NCBI GenBank assembly: GCA_000155695.1
Contig: DS990592.1
Span: forward strand, 5,050,538 to 5,114,537
DNA from: Verrucomicrobiia bacterium DG1235
GTDB lineage: Bacteria; Verrucomicrobiota; Verrucomicrobiia; Opitutales; Opitutaceae
Direction of reading: 5' to 3'
DNA: 64,000 nucleotides
Under the pieces are notes generated by a model. It did no database searches, had not been told where the DNA came from, and saw nothing but the letters and a program-made list of their open reading frames with translations. How positions within the stretch are numbered: the first letter of the stretch is position 1; each line of letters starts with the position of its first letter. A program made the translations under genes and the position numbers. This document shows, piece by piece, positions 36,694-44,847 of the stretch.

Positions 36694-36921
36694 GGGCGTC
36701 GTTTATTAGGGGAGGTGATAGGGCAGGCAAGCGCAAAGGCGGGAGTATAGGTGGGCTGTACGCGTGTTCGTTCCCGGCTTGGAGCAAGTCTCTCATCTGG
36801 ATGAACATGGATAGTAAAAAACATGCAGCCAAACGAGGTCCTGTGGAGTATATCTTGCACGGTTTGGAGTAATCCGACCGTCTTTGCGAAAACTAACTCA
36901 ACCCTATCGAACACCTTTAGT

Positions 36922-37785
36922 ATGAATGCCTCCATTTCCCACGCTTTGAAATTAGCCGCCACTGCCGCTGCCTTTGCCCTAGCCGTTTCGGCCTCCGCTC
37001 AATTGAACACGCCTGCTGCGAGCCCGTATTCAGAGCTCAAGCAAACAGTAGGACTTACGGAAATACAGCTAGTGTACTCGCGCCCGAGTATGAAGGGGCG
37101 GGAGATATTTGGCGGTCTGGTGCCATACGGATCCGTCTGGCGCACTGGCGCGAATCAGCCGACCAAAATCAGCTTCAGCGACGATGTGGTACTCGGCGGC
37201 AAAGAGGTGGACGCGGGAACCTACGCTCTCTACACTATACCAGGTAAAAGCGAGTGGACGGTGATCATCTACTCGAATACGGAGCTGTGGGGTTCTTTTG
37301 GATACGACCAGGCGAACGATGTGGTTCGGTTCAAAGTGAAGCCCAGCAAACTGGGGCATGCTGTAGAGTCCTTAACCATTGGCCTCGATTCATTGAGCAA
37401 CTCATCTGCCAGCATTTATCTTGACTGGGATCACACTCGCGTAGCGTTTTCGGTTGAGGTGCCAACGGATGCGAAAGTGATGTCCCAGATCGACGAGCTC
37501 AAGGGAACTCCCGCTTTTGAGAATCCAAACGTGCTCTTTGGCGCCGGCACTTATTACCATGAGTCTGGCAAGGATTTAGAACAGGCTCTTGCTTGGGTAG
37601 GCGAGGCCTGCGAAAAGAGGGAGCAGCCCGCGTTTTGGATGTATGCTCGCAAGGCCCGTCTCGAAGTGGATCTAGGCAAGAAAGCCGCTGCAAAAGCGTC
37701 CGCTGAAAAGACGCTCGAGCTCGCGACCGCTGCGAACAATGCAGACTACCAGAAAATCGCGAAGGATATACTAGCAGCCCTTTAG
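36922..37785 (+). CDS. Secreted DUF2911 protein with TPR-like tail (copy 2)
   Basis: A 287-aa paralogue of the protein at 13922-14779. The ATG at 36922 gives a clean signal peptide (ALKLAATAAAFALAVSASAQ). The core motifs are EIQLVYSRPSMKGREIFGGLVPYGSVWRTGANQPT and AGTYALYTIPGKSEW. The tail has TPR-like helices (EQALAWVGEACEKREQPAFWMYARKARLEVDLGKKAAAKASAEK). Function is not established. A terminator follows at 37797-37832. Confidence 0.85.
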   Translation: MNASISHALKLAATAAAFALAVSASAQLNTPAASPYSELKQTVGLTEIQLVYSRPSMKGREIFGGLVPYGSVWRTGANQPTKISFSDDVVLGGKEVDAGTYALYTIPGKSEWTVIIYSNTELWGSFGYDQANDVVRFKVKPSKLGHAVESLTIGLDSLSNSSASIYLDWDHTRVAFSVEVPTDAKVMSQIDELKGTPAFENPNVLFGAGTYYHESGKDLEQALAWVGEACEKREQPAFWMYARKARLEVDLGKKAAAKASAEKTLELATAANNADYQKIAKDILAAL

Positions 37786-37796
37786 CCGCAAATTCG

Positions 37797-37832
37797 GATC
37801 CTTTCTCACTTAGAGAGAGGATCTTCTTTTTT
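37797..37832 (+). terminator. Intrinsic terminator after DUF2911 copy 2
   Basis: GATCCTTTCTC (37797-37807) pairs with GAGAGAGGATC (37813-37823), one wobble, with a 5-nt loop, then TTCTTTTTT. Confidence 0.88.
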
Positions 37833-37864
37833 CGAATTCAATTTAGTTCCAGCGCCTCCCGAGC

Positions 37865-40393
37865 ATGCCTTTCCTATCTTTGAAAATTGCGACCTGCCAT
37901 CTTGCCGGTATCTTCGTAGCTGTTGCGTTATTGCGCGCCGATTCCGTTCCGGCTCCGGGACCAACGACTGGCTCCGAGATTCTGTGGTCTCTCCAAAAAC
38001 TGGATACGCTGGGTCGCTCTCTATATGTCGCCGCGCATCCGGATGACGAAAATACGAGCCTTATCTCTTATCTTTCGCTAGGTCGAAAGTATGACACCGC
38101 TTACCTGTCGCTAACGCGTGGCGATGGAGGGCAAAATCTGATAGGTCCAGAACTACGCGATCAGCTAGGGGTGATCCGTACGCAGGAATTGATCGAAGCT
38201 CGCCGGGTCGATGGCGGACGACAGTTCTTCAGCAGAGCGAAGGATTTTGGCTTTTCCAAGCACCCGGATGAGACTTTTGGCATTTGGGATCGTGAAGAGG
38301 TCTTGGCCGATACAGTTTGGGTGATACGGAATTTTCAGCCTGATGTGATTGTGACACGATTCAATCCAGAACCTGGATACACGCATGGTCACCATACCGC
38401 TTCCGCCATTTTGGCGATCGAAGCTTTTGAGGCGGCAGCCGATCCGGATCGATTTTCCGAGCAGCTTGAATTTGCGGATACGTGGCAGGCGAAGCGTGTG
38501 GTTTGGAATACGAGCTCTTGGTTTTTTCGAAATAGCGGAGCCGAGTTCGACGAAAGCGAGTATACTAAGGTCGATGTTGGCGGGTATGACCCTTTGCTTG
38601 GGAAATCGTACAATGAAATTGCCTCCGCGAGTCGAAGCAAGCACTTGAGTCAAGGGTTTGGCACGCGGATTGATCGCGGTTCTCGCATCGAGTACTTCAA
38701 GTATCTTGCAGGGGCGGAGTTGACCGATGATATTTTCGATGGAGTCGATGTGGGCTGGTCTCGTGTTGGAAATTCGAATACGATCCAGCAACAGGTAACT
38801 TCCATTATTGACGCTTTTGACGTCGCTAAACCTGAGTTGGCTGTACCAGCTCTTTTGGACCTTCGGGCGGACCTGACTCGGGCAGGTGATTCGGAATGGA
38901 TTCTGCGTAAGCGAAACGAGGTGGACCGAATTATTCTTTCCTGTATGGGCGTGGACATCCGCGCACTGAATGACTCTCCTTACGTTCGGAATGGAGAAGC
39001 TATGGATCTCAAGCTTGAGATGATTAATCGCTCTGAGGTTGCGGCTCGTCTGGTGGGTGTGTCGCTGCCGTTTGCGGAGAGAGAGGAGGCAGTTGACGTC
39101 GACTTAGCTTACAATTCGCGTATCGAACAGTCCATGACCGCAAGGGTTCCGCAGTCTGCGTCTTTGCCACAACCCTATTGGCTAGCAACTGATGGAAGCT
39201 TGGGAATGTTTGACGTGGAAGATCAACTCTTGATTGGGAAGGCTGAGAACGATCCCGCATTCTATGCGCTGGCGGAGCTAGATGTGATGGGAACTTCTAT
39301 CACGGTGGAGTTGCCCTTGGTTTACCGCGATGTCGATCCAGCCAAGGGGGAGACGATACGGCCGGTGCTGAACTTGCCGCAAGCGGCGGTTTCTTTTGCG
39401 ACTCCAGTAAGTCTTTTTCCGAATTTTGAGAGTCGAACTTTAGAGGTGAAGGTTTCCGCCATGCTATCGGATTTATCCGGTCGGCTCGAGATTGACCTGC
39501 CGGAGGGGTGGAGTTCAGAGCCGAGAATTCACACGGTGGATACTATTCGGGAAGGGGGTGATCGAAGCTATGCCTTTGAAATTACGCCGGCTTCGGTTTC
39601 GGAGGAGGTCGCCATTTCTGCTCGCTTTGTTACGGATCAGGGGACATTTGGAAAGTCAGTCGCTCGGATAGAATACGACCACATTCGCGAGCAGACTGTA
39701 TTCGCAGTGGCATCCACCCGAGCGGTAAGTCTGGAAGTCGCTAGAGCCGGTCAGAGGATCGGTTACTTGCCGGGAGCGGGGGATTCGGTTCCGGATAGCA
39801 TTCGGGAGATTGGCTTCGAAGTTGTGGAGTTGTCGCCGGAAGGATTTGGCGTTGATGATTTGGCTGGAATTGACACGGTCGTTCTTGGTATCCGGGCTTA
39901 CAATACAATCGATGGGATCGGAGCGATTATGGAGGAGCTTTTCGCTTTCGCGGAAGCTGGGGGAACGGTCATCGCTCAATACAACACGAGCCACCGTTTG
40001 AAGACCGAGAAGATAGCTCCGTATCCGCTTTCGCTATCTCGAGATCGTGTGACGGATGAGACCGCGGAGATCCGCGTGCTCGCTCCAAAGCATCCAGTGA
40101 TGACGACTCCGAATGTGATCACTGCTCGAGACTTTTCGAATTGGACGCAGGAGCGCGGGCTTTATTTTCCAAATTCTTGGGATGAAGCCTTTGTGCCAAT
40201 CCTCTCGCTTAATGATCCAGGGGAGCCATCTCGCGAAGGAAGCCTGCTCGTGGCGGAGTATGGAGAAGGGTATTTCGTTTACACGGGGATTTCGTGGTTC
40301 AGGCAACTTCCGGCTGGTGTTCCCGGGGCGTATCGCATTTTCGCCAACCTTCTGTCGCTTGGGCACTCGAGCTATTCGACGGACCAACTCTAG
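37865..40393 (+). CDS. Large secreted PIG-L-family deacetylase
   Basis: An 842-aa exported protein; the signal sequence is about residues 1-25. The PIG-L/LmbE domain is N-terminal: VAAHPDDE (H58, D60, D61) and the zinc-ligand motif THGHH (H174, H177). The remaining 600 residues are beta-rich, with a final segment (FAEAGGTVIAQYNTSHRL) that looks like a ThuA/GATase-like fold. PIG-L enzymes remove N-acetyl groups from amino sugars. It is followed after 6 nt by a tiny membrane-protein gene, a symporter and the bacillithiol genes, all coupled, so its product may be taken up or linked to bacillithiol metabolism (inference). Confidence 0.88.
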   Translation: MPFLSLKIATCHLAGIFVAVALLRADSVPAPGPTTGSEILWSLQKLDTLGRSLYVAAHPDDENTSLISYLSLGRKYDTAYLSLTRGDGGQNLIGPELRDQLGVIRTQELIEARRVDGGRQFFSRAKDFGFSKHPDETFGIWDREEVLADTVWVIRNFQPDVIVTRFNPEPGYTHGHHTASAILAIEAFEAAADPDRFSEQLEFADTWQAKRVVWNTSSWFFRNSGAEFDESEYTKVDVGGYDPLLGKSYNEIASASRSKHLSQGFGTRIDRGSRIEYFKYLAGAELTDDIFDGVDVGWSRVGNSNTIQQQVTSIIDAFDVAKPELAVPALLDLRADLTRAGDSEWILRKRNEVDRIILSCMGVDIRALNDSPYVRNGEAMDLKLEMINRSEVAARLVGVSLPFAEREEAVDVDLAYNSRIEQSMTARVPQSASLPQPYWLATDGSLGMFDVEDQLLIGKAENDPAFYALAELDVMGTSITVELPLVYRDVDPAKGETIRPVLNLPQAAVSFATPVSLFPNFESRTLEVKVSAMLSDLSGRLEIDLPEGWSSEPRIHTVDTIREGGDRSYAFEITPASVSEEVAISARFVTDQGTFGKSVARIEYDHIREQTVFAVASTRAVSLEVARAGQRIGYLPGAGDSVPDSIREIGFEVVELSPEGFGVDDLAGIDTVVLGIRAYNTIDGIGAIMEELFAFAEAGGTVIAQYNTSHRLKTEKIAPYPLSLSRDRVTDETAEIRVLAPKHPVMTTPNVITARDFSNWTQERGLYFPNSWDEAFVPILSLNDPGEPSREGSLLVAEYGEGYFVYTGISWFRQLPAGVPGAYRIFANLLSLGHSSYSTDQL

Positions 40394-40399
40394 CTAAAC

Positions 40400-40540
40400 A
40401 TGGCCGTAAAAAGTAAATCTCAGCTTAACGATAATCAGCCACCTGTATTGGGAAGCTGGAGACGTGTGTACTGGTTCGTGGCTCTCTTCTTCGTTGTCGA
40501 GGTGGGCCTCTTCTATCTGTTTACCCGTTTTTACTCGTGA
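40400..40540 (+). CDS. 46-aa single-pass membrane protein coupled to the symporter
   Basis: An ATG at 40400 opens a 46-codon frame that ends TGA at 40538-40540. The protein has a hydrophilic head (about 20 residues), then a membrane helix from about Y24 to Y45 (YWFVALFFVVEVGLFYLFTRFY). Its stop overlaps the GTG start of the symporter (GTGA), and it begins 6 nt after the PIG-L gene. Small companion subunits are known for some sodium/solute symporters, which makes an accessory subunit a reasonable guess. No specific family is recognised. Confidence 0.75.
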   Translation: MAVKSKSQLNDNQPPVLGSWRRVYWFVALFFVVEVGLFYLFTRFYS

Positions 40541-42243
40541 GTACGCTCGACTACATTGTACTGCTGGGAACCTTAGTTGGCATCGCCGCTTATGGAATGT
40601 GGCGCACTCGAGAGAGTGGGGGTCTGCAAGGTTACTTGAAGGGAGACGATTCGATAAAATGGGGAACTATAGGCCTTTCGGTTATGGCGACTCAGGCCAG
40701 CGCGATTACTTTTCTGTCTACTCCGGGAAAGGCTTACGACGATGGAATGGGGTTTGTGCAAAACTACTTCGGGATGCCATTCGCGATCATCTTTATCTGC
40801 GTGTTTTTCATTCCTATCTACCGTAAGTTAAATGTGTATACGTCTTACGAATACCTTGGGCAGCGCTTCGATTCGAAGACTCGGTATTTGGGAGCGATCC
40901 TCTTTCTCGTGCAAAGAGGATTAGCGGCAGGCATCACGATCTATGCTCCGGCAATTGTCATCTCTTCGCTTCTCGGTTGGAATCTCGATCTGACGATCGT
41001 GTTGGTCGGCGCGCTCGTGATCATCTATACGGTGTCTGGCGGAACGAAGGCGGTTAGCATCACTCAGCGTTATCAGATGGCGGTGATCATGATTGGGATG
41101 TTCATCGCTTTTGGTATGATAGTCGGGAATCTGCCCAGCGATATTTCTTTTGGTTCGGCACTCTCGGTAGCAGGCGCGATGGACAAGCTCGAAGTGGTTA
41201 ACTTCTCGTTTGATATCGAAGAGCGCTATACTTTCTGGTCCGGGCTCTTTGGCGGCGTATTCCTATCGCTTTCGTATTTTGGGACGGACCAATCGCAGGT
41301 GCAGCGTTATCTGGCTGGGAGCTCTTCAAGCGCCAGTAAGTTTGGGCTTCTTTTCAATGCGGTGGTTAAGATCCCGATGCAGTTTTTTATCCTATTTGTG
41401 GGTGTGATGGTCTTCGTGTTTTATCTTTTTGAGAAGCCGCCCGTTTTCTTTAATCAATCGACGCTCGATGCTGTGGCGCAAACGGAGCATGCGGGTCAGT
41501 TATTGTCGCTAGAAGGTGAATACGGAGAAATCGTTGATCAAAGATCGGTAGCTGTTCGTCAGCTTGCGGTTGCGCTTGATAAAGGAGATGAAGCTGAGAT
41601 AGGCCTCGCGAAGGCGAAAGCCGTGGAGTTGGAAGAGCGGGCGTTGCTAGTTCGAAACGAGGTGAAGGAGTTGATCAGCAAGGCGGGTGAGGATTTCGAG
41701 GCAAAAGACTCTGACTATGTTTTCATTACGTTTATTCTGGATTATCTGCCGGAAGGATTGGTCGGTCTTTTGGTGGCGGTTATTTTCGCTGCGGCGATGT
41801 CGTCCACGGCTTCAGAGTTGAATGCTCTCGGATCCACGACGATGGTTGATATCTATCGTCGTTTGATCCGACATGAGAAGTCGGACGCGCATTATGTACG
41901 TGTCTCGCGGATACTGACTGCGGCTTGGGGAGTGTTGGCCATATTTTTCGCTTTGTATGCGAACTTGGTGGAGAATTTGATCGAGGCGGTGAATATTCTC
42001 GGATCCCTCTTTTACGGAGGAATTCTGGGGATCTTCTTCGTGGCGTTCTTTTTGAAGTCGGTGCACGGGAGTGCCGTTTTTCTGGCTGCTTTGATTACGC
42101 AGGCGTCGGTATTGCTTATGTTCAAGTTTACGGATATCGGCTATCTCTGGTACAATTTGATTGGGTGCGTGTTGGTGATGCTGCTTTCATTGCTTTTGCA
42201 GATGACTGTTTTTCGTTCGGAGGGGAAGGTGTCTGAGTCATGA
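40537..42243 (+). CDS. Sodium/solute symporter (SSS family)
   Basis: A 568-aa transporter with about 13 helices and the SSS core. Seen: helix 1 LDYIVLLGTLVGIAAYGMW, the loop GGLQGYLKGDDSIKWGTIGLSVMATQASAITFLSTPG, YTVSGGTKAVSITQRYQM, and LAAAMSSTASELNALGSTTMVDIYRR-like segments. A helical insert of about 100 residues occurs around 310-400 (SLEGEYGEIVDQRSVAVRQLA). It starts with GTG inside the stop of the 46-aa gene and overlaps the next start by ATGA. Substrate unknown; an amino sugar or bacillithiol-related compound would fit the operon. Confidence 0.92.
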   Translation: MSTLDYIVLLGTLVGIAAYGMWRTRESGGLQGYLKGDDSIKWGTIGLSVMATQASAITFLSTPGKAYDDGMGFVQNYFGMPFAIIFICVFFIPIYRKLNVYTSYEYLGQRFDSKTRYLGAILFLVQRGLAAGITIYAPAIVISSLLGWNLDLTIVLVGALVIIYTVSGGTKAVSITQRYQMAVIMIGMFIAFGMIVGNLPSDISFGSALSVAGAMDKLEVVNFSFDIEERYTFWSGLFGGVFLSLSYFGTDQSQVQRYLAGSSSSASKFGLLFNAVVKIPMQFFILFVGVMVFVFYLFEKPPVFFNQSTLDAVAQTEHAGQLLSLEGEYGEIVDQRSVAVRQLAVALDKGDEAEIGLAKAKAVELEERALLVRNEVKELISKAGEDFEAKDSDYVFITFILDYLPEGLVGLLVAVIFAAAMSSTASELNALGSTTMVDIYRRLIRHEKSDAHYVRVSRILTAAWGVLAIFFALYANLVENLIEAVNILGSLFYGGILGIFFVAFFLKSVHGSAVFLAALITQASVLLMFKFTDIGYLWYNLIGCVLVMLLSLLLQMTVFRSEGKVSES

Positions 42244-43010
42244 GTGAGCAGCCGGTAATTTGTTTTGGTCAGCAGCCGTGTGGGTTTTTCCCGAAGCGAT
42301 TTTTGGTCTCCAAAATTTGGACTGCGCTTCGGCTGCAGAAGGAGATTGGTGGGGAAATCATGTTTTTCTATCATGATTGCGATCATGACCCGCGGGAGAC
42401 GCAGACGAGATTGCGGCATTCGAAAACGGGGGAGGTGCAGAGTTTGAACTTCACTTTCGAGAACAAGATTCAGAAGAAGTATTCTCCTTTATTCGCAAAG
42501 CGAGTGGATCGTAATTGGCAGGCGAATACAGCGCGCCAGTTGCCGAATTTCGTTAACGAGGCGTTGGTCGAGCTCTTCGCTGGAATCAAGGCTGAGAACG
42601 TGGCAGACTTTTGTCTCGAAATGTATCGAGGTATGGGTCTGCTCGAGGGCATCCGCGTCGAACGTTCAGGGGCAGCCGATTTTCGCTGCAAGGCTATCGA
42701 TGTGGATGATTATTTTGTGGATACGCGGCACGGAGGCGAACTGGTGCGAGCTCGTAAGCACGAGGACGGTTTCGCTCTGCATCAGGGAGGTAGCTCCTTT
42801 CTCAAGGTGGAGGCGGATTGTTTAGATAAGAGTCGAATTACTCCGACGCGCGATACGCGTCTGTGTTGGATGCAGTCGGTTCTTCATTGTACTCACTATA
42901 TAGCGGGAGCGGGAGAGATTAAGTACTTGAATACGGCAGAAGCTCCTGAGATCGAATTTGTGGAGCGCGACGTAATTGAACGTAGTGACGAAGCCTATGT
43001 CGGAGAATAA
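42240..43010 (+). CDS. bshC: Compact BshC homologue (bacillithiol cysteine-adding enzyme)
   Basis: A 256-aa protein. BshC normally has about 540 residues and adds cysteine to GlcN-malate in the last step of bacillithiol synthesis. This protein keeps the BshC Rossmann start (ICFGQQPCGFFPKRFLVSKIWTALRLQKEI, GQQ at 10-12) and the DHD motif (FYHDCDHDPRE, 48-50). It also keeps the distal signature TRDTRLCWMQSVLHCTHYIAGAGEIKYLN (GAGEI at 223-227), corresponding to TRPL...AGPGEIAYW in typical BshC. Missing are the large middle and the C-terminal coiled coil. It overlaps the symporter by ATGA and the BshB gene by 14 nt, next to bshA. Homology is judged by eye from motif order. Confidence 0.7.
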   Translation: MSEQPVICFGQQPCGFFPKRFLVSKIWTALRLQKEIGGEIMFFYHDCDHDPRETQTRLRHSKTGEVQSLNFTFENKIQKKYSPLFAKRVDRNWQANTARQLPNFVNEALVELFAGIKAENVADFCLEMYRGMGLLEGIRVERSGAADFRCKAIDVDDYFVDTRHGGELVRARKHEDGFALHQGGSSFLKVEADCLDKSRITPTRDTRLCWMQSVLHCTHYIAGAGEIKYLNTAEAPEIEFVERDVIERSDEAYVGE

Positions 43011-43713
43011 GCCAGCAACAATTCTAGCGGTCGGAGCGCATCCGGATGATATCGAGTTCGGGTGCGGAGCGATATTGCTCAAAGAGGCGGCAGCCGGAGC
43101 TCGTATTCATTTTCTCCTTTGTTCTAAGGGGGAAGCTGGGAGTAATGGTTCCCCAGAAGGACGAGAAGAAGAGTGCTCGACGGCTGCGAGGCAGCTTGGG
43201 GCAAGCTTGAGCTTTATCGACTGTGGCGGAGATGGAAAGCTTGAGGGATCGCGGGGAAACGCGATCACTATCGCTCGCGTGATTCGGGAGACGCAGGCCA
43301 GTGTGGTATTGGCTCCGTCTCTGGTGGAGAACCAGCATCCAGATCATTGCGCTATCGGCAGAGCGACCCGTGAAGCGGCGCGCCTTGCACGCTATGCGGG
43401 CTTGGATGCCCTGAAGGGAGCTTCGGTTCACGCCATTGACTCACTGTATTTTTATGCGATTACGCCGGGCGCGGAACCAGTGGAGGGGACGCCGTTTCTG
43501 TTCGACGTTTCGGAAAACGTTGAGGGCTGGAAGGATTTGATGGCTTGCCATGCTTCGCAAATGAAGACGCGACGTTATTTGGAGCTACAGGTATCGCGAG
43601 CGCGTACGCTGGGGCTGCAAACAGGGTGTGAGTATGCGCAAGTTCTCTGGCCGAATGATCCAGTATTAGTGGATAGCTTGAATTCGGCGCCCCGCGGAGC
43701 TCGTTTGTTCTAG
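42997..43713 (+). CDS. bshB: Bacillithiol-type PIG-L deacetylase, BshB1-like
   Basis: A 238-aa LmbE/PIG-L deacetylase: ILAVGAHPDDIEFGCGAIL with H15, D17 and D18, and ENQHPDHCAIGR near 117 for the zinc site. BshB1 deacetylates GlcNAc-malate to GlcN-malate. The ATG at 42997 is preferred; a start at 42976 would overlap the previous gene more. Its stop is immediately followed by the GTG of bshA. Cytosolic, unlike the large PIG-L protein upstream. Confidence 0.9.
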   Translation: MSENKPATILAVGAHPDDIEFGCGAILLKEAAAGARIHFLLCSKGEAGSNGSPEGREEECSTAARQLGASLSFIDCGGDGKLEGSRGNAITIARVIRETQASVVLAPSLVENQHPDHCAIGRATREAARLARYAGLDALKGASVHAIDSLYFYAITPGAEPVEGTPFLFDVSENVEGWKDLMACHASQMKTRRYLELQVSRARTLGLQTGCEYAQVLWPNDPVLVDSLNSAPRGARLF

Positions 43714-44847
43714 GTGAGTTCTCAACGAAAGCTGAAAATCGGCATTGCCTGCTATCCATTGGTCGGAGGGAGCGGGATTCTCGCCTCGGCGCTCGGCATT
43801 GAGTTGGCGGAACGTGGGCATGAAGTGCATTTCTTCAGCTATGCCAAGCCGGTGCGGCTCGATACCAGCTTGCCTCGGATACATTTCCATCCGGTCTCCG
43901 TGAGCAAGTATAAGCTGTTTGAATATGCGGACTACACGCTGCCGCTAGCAGTGAAAATGGCAGAAGTGGCGGATCACGAGCATCTTGACATAATCCACGC
44001 TCACTACGCGGTGCCGCACGCGACGGCTGCCTACATCGCCAAGCGAATGGCGAAGCAGGACAAGCTGCGCATCGTGACGACGCTACATGGGACGGATACG
44101 ACTTTGTTGGGTCGCGATCCGAATTACCGGCGGGCGATAGAGTATTCGCTGCAGCATTCGGATATGGTGACAACTGTATCCAATAGTTTGAGACGCGATA
44201 CGGAGGAGATTTTCGACGTCGGGAAAGCGGTGAAGGTGATTCACAATTTCTATACGCCTGGAGTGCCTACTCGGTCTCGTCAGGAGATGAGAGAGGAGCT
44301 GGGGCTTGGGAATTCGTTTACGCTTTTCCACGCGTCGAATTTGCGGTCGGTTAAGCGGATCGATTTGCTGCTCGAGTCGGTAAGCCGGTGTCGGAATCTT
44401 TCGCGGTTGAAGCTTATCATTCTGGCGGGTTCTTCCTTTGAGGAATTTCGGTCGAAAGTTCGCGAGCTGGGCTTGGAAAACGTGGTAATTGTTCGGGAAA
44501 ATGGGTATCCGATCGAAAACTACATCGAAGCCAGCGATCTCGGAATCTATACGTCTCAGACGGAGAGCTTTTGCCTGAGTATTTTGGAAGGCATGTTTTT
44601 GGGTAAGGCATCCATCGCGTTTCGAGTCGGAGGGATACCGGAAGTGATGGTCGAGGGAGAGTCGGGGGTCTTGTGCGATTTCGAGGACTGCGAGGCCATG
44701 GCGGGGGAAATTGATCGATTGGTGGAGAATCGCGATCGGGGGAGGCGATTCGGGGAGGCGGCCAAATCTCGAGCGTTTTCAGAGTTCACAGCGGAGCGAA
44801 TCGTGCCGCAGTATCTCGATTGCTACGAGCAGGCTCTCGGGCAGTAG
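43714..44847 (+). CDS. bshA: N-acetyl-alpha-D-glucosaminyl L-malate synthase
   Basis: A 377-aa GT4 glycosyltransferase matching BshA closely: IGIACYPLVGGSGILASALGIELAERGHEVHFFSY, HAHYAVPHATAAYIAKRM, TLHGTDTTLLGRDP, and the C-terminal ESFCLSILEGMFLGKASIAFRVGGIPEVMVEGESGVL. It makes GlcNAc-malate, the first bacillithiol intermediate. It uses a GTG start directly abutting the bshB stop. Together with bshB and the compact bshC this gives the complete three-step pathway in one operon. Confidence 0.97.
   Translation: MSSQRKLKIGIACYPLVGGSGILASALGIELAERGHEVHFFSYAKPVRLDTSLPRIHFHPVSVSKYKLFEYADYTLPLAVKMAEVADHEHLDIIHAHYAVPHATAAYIAKRMAKQDKLRIVTTLHGTDTTLLGRDPNYRRAIEYSLQHSDMVTTVSNSLRRDTEEIFDVGKAVKVIHNFYTPGVPTRSRQEMREELGLGNSFTLFHASNLRSVKRIDLLLESVSRCRNLSRLKLIILAGSSFEEFRSKVRELGLENVVIVRENGYPIENYIEASDLGIYTSQTESFCLSILEGMFLGKASIAFRVGGIPEVMVEGESGVLCDFEDCEAMAGEIDRLVENRDRGRRFGEAAKSRAFSEFTAERIVPQYLDCYEQALGQ

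Follow-up and report, generated by a model that had tools for sequence, protein, structure and literature searches.

The window analysed in this study is a stretch of 64,000 nucleotides in which an open reading frame at 42240-43010, on the forward strand, encodes a protein of 256 residues. The initial annotation had described a 256-aa frame overlapping bshB, and the frame was confirmed at exactly these coordinates. The ATG of this short gene shares four bases (ATGA) with the stop of the upstream sodium:solute symporter gene, its last 14 bases lie within bshB (ATG at 42997), and bshA lies directly 3' of bshB, at 43714. The genes of the cluster and the motifs of the short protein are as follows.

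36823-37785, + strand: DUF2911 protein marking the upstream limit of the conserved cluster; it may really start further inside the frame (PF11138, 190 bits)
37865-40393, + strand: PIG-L protein of 842 aa, Mca-like; the best NCBIfam model is mycothiol conjugate amidase Mca, at 59.8 bits, far below the cut-off of 277.15
40537-42243, + strand: sodium:solute symporter (SSS), a conserved neighbour (TIGR00813, 235.6 bits, cut-off 184)
42240-43010, + strand: short BshC-like protein of 256 aa, putative minimal cysteine-adding enzyme (open reading frame, 47-sequence family, AlphaFold, Foldseek and hhalign)
42267-42275, + strand: GQQ motif, residues 10-12, aligned with G89-Q90-Q91 of BshC; invariant in 47 short forms and six full BshC, and paired in hhalign
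42381-42398, + strand: DHDxxE motif, residues 48-53, aligned with D133-H134-D135-x-x-E138 of BshC
42906-42926, + strand: GxxExxY motif (GAGEIKY), residues 223-229, aligned with G350-x-x-E353-x-x-Y356 of BshC, a pairing that hhalign gives only when relaxed to full length
42997-43713, + strand: bshB-like PIG-L deacetylase, 238 aa from the ATG at 42997 (PF02585, 83.5 bits; TIGR04001 BshB1, 120.4 bits, below the cut-off of 182.5)
43714-44847, + strand: bshA, N-acetylglucosaminyl malate synthase (TIGR03999, 379.9 bits, equivalog cut-off 273.7)

Both bshA and bshB had been called clear. This holds for bshA, which scores over the TIGR03999 cut-off, but the bshB product stays below that of BshB1, though BshB1 is its best NCBIfam model.

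Similar arrangements are found around other copies of the short gene. Among 19 fetched neighbourhoods, the SSS symporter gene adjoins it in 18 (the 19th ends at a contig edge), bshB adjoins it in 17, and bshA is present in 18. Further upstream, the large PIG-L protein is near full-length in 16 of the 19 and a fragment in one more, and the DUF2911 gene is found in 14. Two loci are without bshB between the short bshC gene and bshA (L081, 5380-7268, and L085, 5960-7835); in these 12-kb stretches, no open frame contains a PIG-L motif except that of the large upstream protein.

A conserved family of short proteins

The short form constitutes a family of 47 distinct sequences of 251-267 aa with 55 invariant alignment columns, from which the partial sequences L030 and L036 were excluded and in which ORF starts were picked by script. 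Residues G10, Q11, Q12, D48, H49, D50, E53, G223, E226 and Y229 are invariant in all 47, the window's protein included, and GQQ, DHD and GAGEIKY follow each other in the order that had been reported for them. Purifying selection is strong, with dN of 0.095-0.262 and dS of at least 1.33, often saturated, in the 15 pairs formed by six same-length copies of the same genus. A pseudogene or a sequencing error is ruled out by the 47 distinct sequences of 251-267 aa, by the stop-free matches and by the low dN relative to dS, and the short gene is a functional one of near-fixed length rather than a local truncation.

The nearest named relatives found, in a contig scan from which the window's own record was possibly excluded, are Pelagicoccus strains (82% identity), and the genome is therefore Pelagicoccus-like (Verrucomicrobiota, Opitutales). 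Scanning the contigs with the window sequence alone, which reaches close relatives, returned seven loci, titled Pelagicoccus, Opitutales or Spartobacteria. A short form 59% identical is carried by a Spartobacteria MAG (L034), where lateral transfer or a binning error may be involved. As regards viral relatives, none of 47 pattern matches in IMG/VR contigs was confirmed.

Predicted structure

The AlphaFold model of the window protein (pLDDT 95.1, pTM 0.91) was compared with the PDB using Foldseek. Bacillus subtilis BshC (4WBD) is the sole match at E <= 0.001, with an E value of 4.5e-10, a probability of 1.00, a TM-score of 0.68 over the query and 16% identity over the structural alignment. The next match, a class I lysyl-tRNA synthetase, has an E value of 1.1e-3 and is more than six orders of magnitude weaker. 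A second model was made for G333, the divergent sister that scores highest against PF10079 (pLDDT 90.6), and again 4WBD alone is matched (E 1.7e-9, TM-score 0.63), a result that serves as a robustness check and not as independent proof, since the two models share family members. Superposition on B. subtilis BshC had been suggested in the initial annotation, with a different fold as the contrary outcome; the fold of both predicted models matches 4WBD. Among the matches listed, most of the lower rows are class I tRNA synthetases for both models. These second-tier fold matches of the short form include LysRS-I, GluRS, GlnRS and TyrRS; the synthetases listed for the model of the window protein have TM-scores of 0.27-0.43 over the query, as compared to 0.68 for BshC. 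When the PDB was searched by sequence, BshC was found neither with the short protein nor with the family profile, and the profile matched no relevant chain.

Homology with full-length BshC

The BshC profile search that had been proposed gave a divided answer. The window protein matches neither PF10079, the Pfam model of the BshC Rossmann region (curated cut-off 27 bits), nor any other Pfam or NCBIfam model, whereas several of its sisters do match PF10079, under that cut-off. At E <= 10 the model matches 5 of 31 family members (best 7.7e-5), and at E <= 1 it matches 5 of 10 hand-picked sisters (best 8.5e-6, 25.8 bits) and none of the other 5. No tested member of the short family reaches the curated cut-off.

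The 47 short forms were then aligned by hhalign with six full BshC sequences, of which three belong to family f46, also of this phylum, and three are plasmid-borne (Bacillus velezensis, Paenibacillus and Deinococcus). The score of 36.4 (E 4.8e-4, probability 32%, and 32-36% across hhalign runs) exceeds those of all 200 column-permuted controls, whose maximum is 25.0, and that of the reversed alignment (15.0). Default settings align just 52-53 columns, which are the GQQ-to-DHD stretch. Under relaxed settings (mact 0.01), with the score unchanged, 248 collinear columns place positions 1-261 of the short form on 80-406 of BshC, and 13 conserved residues are identical across both families. With B. 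velezensis BshC as reference, G10, Q11, Q12, K25, D48, H49, D50, E53, R207, Q212, G223, E226 and Y229 pair respectively with G89, Q90, Q91, K104, D133, H134, D135, E138, R334, Q338, G350, E353 and Y356. The lysine has identical spacing from GQQ in both proteins, and the arginine and glutamine upstream of GxxExxY are aligned in the relaxed alignment only. Of 34 BshC-invariant positions, 19 land on near-invariant positions of the short form, against 10.4 expected, a pairing that the alignment itself favours. Comparisons of an HMM with single sequences gave weaker signals: the HMM of the six BshC matches short forms with a best E value of 0.023 (1.3 for shuffled sequences), and the HMM of the short forms scarcely separates BshC (best E 0.72) from shuffled BshC (1.2). 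By computation, from fold and from profiles, the short protein is a homologue of BshC.

In B. velezensis BshC, which has 539 aa, GQQ is at position 89. Arithmetic on the motif positions of this protein gives three approximate losses in the short form: 79 residues ahead of GQQ, 48 from GQQ to GxxE, and 156 beyond the tyrosine of GxxExxY, the last with the whole coiled-coil domain; the short protein stops 27 residues past this tyrosine. GQQ had been taken for the normal start of BshC, which is wrong, as N-terminal residues are missing too. The middle, said to be dropped, is shortened instead, and the C-terminal coiled coil is absent as had been claimed. The coiled-coil domain of BshC (PF24850) was found in 0 of 57 genomes, comprising the window's genome and its relatives. 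The gene is therefore not split, with a C-terminal half encoded elsewhere.

Occurrence in the phylum

The initial annotation had called for a search for the same short form in other verrucomicrobial genomes, and it is found there. A family-profile search detected it in 25 of 387 genomes of the phylum, 22 from the window's family, two from another family of the order and one from another family of the class. BshA scores over its cut-off in 28 of the 387 and full BshC in three; a fourth PF10079 row is the short form of G333, below the cut-off. The set with BshA consists precisely of the 25 genomes with the short form, all of which have BshA, and the three with full BshC, with no overlap between the two groups. 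In the remaining 359 genomes, neither the short form nor full BshC was found.

Among the 57 relatives, the window's genome included, the short form was detected in 30 (in G052 as a fragment of 36 residues where a contig ends), BshA over cut-off in 28, and full BshC in none. All 28 BshA genomes have the short form. The two genomes with the short form only are incomplete (84% and 50%), and their fetched stretches end at the match or about 0.6 kb past it. The sets of 57 and 387 genomes overlap, in 9 of the 44 genomes that have both the short gene and bshA, and Fisher tests of co-occurrence ignore shared ancestry, the genomes not being independent trials. In 43 of these 44 genomes, bshA is downstream of the short gene, on the same strand and within 2 kb; in the exception (G008) the two genes are on different contigs.

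The gene order around full bshC in family f46 is comparable. One genome of this family (G100) has a methyltransferase gene, full bshC (521 aa), bshB and bshA in one cluster. Full bshC is just upstream of bshB-bshA in this genome, and the short gene thus occupies the bshC slot. In the other two f46 genomes, bshA likewise lies 3' of full bshC and in the same orientation.

A separate full-length bshC with conserved synteny had been named as one finding that would refute the half-length BshC. No full-length BshC was found elsewhere in the window's genome or in any of the 57 genomes, which rules out a second copy there. In every BshA genome searched that has no full BshC, the short form is found in its stead, and this is a lineage-wide replacement of BshC, not a one-off truncation. 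This distribution is the strongest argument for the short form as BshC.

Discussion

Of the enzymes that make bacillithiol, BshC is the least understood. A 2015 review (PMC4360819) describes a coiled-coil dimerisation domain for BshC, and states that no in vitro activity had been demonstrated for the canonical enzyme and that its mechanism was unknown. What is new here is a lineage-wide minimal variant of this known enzyme. We found no paper on a short or verrucomicrobial BshC in the open-licence literature, judged by titles and abstract openings.

Very probably, this divergent and reduced BshC homologue of 256 aa does the job of BshC. This reading, already that of the initial annotation, is supported by the fold, by the absence of full-length BshC and by the lineage-wide replacement, with catalysis by the short form being inferred. 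In the pathway order given in PMC6282198 and PMC4360819, BshA would make GlcNAc-malate, BshB would then deacetylate it, and the short BshC would perform the last step, joining L-cysteine to the free amine of glucosaminyl-malate. The product would be bacillithiol or a close analogue, bacillithiol itself being presumed. The short enzyme retains the Rossmann core with GQQ / K, DHDxxE and R..Q..GxxExxY, but has lost the N-terminal extension, some of the middle, the last stretch of the Rossmann region and all of the coiled-coil domain. The second ADP pocket of BshC probably involves the coiled coil; if so, the short form would be without a second pocket. Class I synthetases make up most of the next-best fold matches, and ATP activation of cysteine in a class I synthetase-like core may be suggested.

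BshC (YllA; PF10079 and PF24850; PDB 4WBD) and the short form have in common the Rossmann core fold, the GQQ, K, DHDxxE, R..Q and GxxExxY residues in the same order, the slot beside bshB-bshA and the tie to the presence of BshA. They differ in size (521-554 aa in the six full BshC), in the N-terminal, middle and coiled-coil losses described above, and in the divergence that leaves the short form under the Pfam cut-off. MshC (TIGR03447), the mycothiol cysteine ligase, would share with the short form the proposed chemistry, the addition of cysteine onto a glucosamine amine. MshC is a relative of CysRS with a class I synthetase-like fold; the window protein has no NCBIfam match, and neither CysRS nor MshC is among the 50 Foldseek matches listed for each of the two models. 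No MshC over the TIGR03447 cut-off was found in the 57 genomes, and an MshC-type replacement is thereby ruled out.

A homologous ligase with a different product, using another amino acid or a modified glucosaminyl-malate and so giving a bacillithiol analogue, is unlikely, but it is the likeliest of the rival readings. It would fit the deep divergence from BshC, with 16% identity over the structural alignment, and a BshB under its equivalog cut-off. Markers of bacillithiol use point the same way: PF06491, which we take to be the BrxA/B bacilliredoxin family, was found in 0 of 57 genomes, and YpdA over cut-off also in 0 of 57, with four sub-cut-off matches at E <= 1e-30. In 14 control genomes, PF06491 matches B. 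subtilis only and PF10079 matches three, so that BshC does not always come with PF06491 and the absence of the latter is not decisive. YpdA matches the same three control genomes as BshC, and its absence therefore weighs more. Against an altered product stand BshA, over its equivalog cut-off, the core residues common to the short form and BshC, and the loose tie of PF06491 to BshC. The window's genome also has a GSH-S_ATP match of 61.7 bits (Pfam cut-off 23), 11 other genomes of the 57 have matches as well, and another thiol or another ATP-grasp enzyme is thus possible.

A role of the short protein as a mere non-catalytic remnant or partner, with cysteine added by another ligase such as CysRS, is very improbable. 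The loss of the coiled-coil dimerisation domain, and perhaps of the second ADP pocket, would agree with such a remnant, but core residues are invariant in 47 sequences, selection is strong, no BshA genome without full BshC is without the short gene (387 and 57 genomes searched), and the window's genome has one CysRS/MshC-like match only. That the protein is unrelated to BshC, a class I synthetase-like (HUP) protein resembling it in general fold alone, is hardly credible: most next-best fold matches are indeed class I tRNA synthetases and the HMM-to-sequence comparisons are weak, but the Foldseek E value is 4.5e-10 for BshC against 1.1e-3 for the next match, sisters match PF10079 up to 8.5e-6, hhalign scores above 200 of 200 permuted controls, and the operon slot is that of full BshC in G100.

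A minimal BshC has consequences for the known distribution of thiols. A 2018 survey (PMC6282198) lists Verrucomicrobia among lineages without a documented or predicted low-molecular-weight thiol, and its search used one BshC (CT1558) and required 30% identity or more, an E value under a set limit and similar length. A short divergent BshC would presumably escape such a search, and in part of the phylum the thiol gap could therefore be an artefact of detection. Our results, from a marine bacterium and its relatives, suggest that a little-studied bacterial group makes a protective thiol with a stripped-down enzyme. A natural BshC of half size, reduced to the core, would show which parts are indispensable and give a simpler protein for assays.

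The upstream trio at 36823-42243 of the window (DUF2911 protein, Mca-like PIG-L protein and SSS symporter) hints at conjugate hydrolysis and re-uptake, and the Mca-like protein and symporter may have a salvage role in which conjugates are hydrolysed and the sugar part is imported. A wider proposal, which we hold as possible but rather doubtful, is that the six genes together form a complete island for thiol synthesis and recycling in Verrucomicrobiota. In such an island, a single-domain and possibly monomeric BshC would be the minimal catalytic unit, hydrolysis of thiol conjugates would fall to the large Mca-like PIG-L protein, the sodium symporter would retrieve the sugar part, and the thiol would feed redox partners unlike PF06491 bacilliredoxins and YpdA. 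If the island exists as proposed, the coiled-coil dimer and the second ADP pocket would be proved dispensable.

Finally, in the full-length cluster of G100 (f46; L088, 3799-4557), a methyltransferase-like ORF overlaps the start of full bshC and, named by eye, could encode an NmbA-like N-methyl-bacillithiol enzyme.
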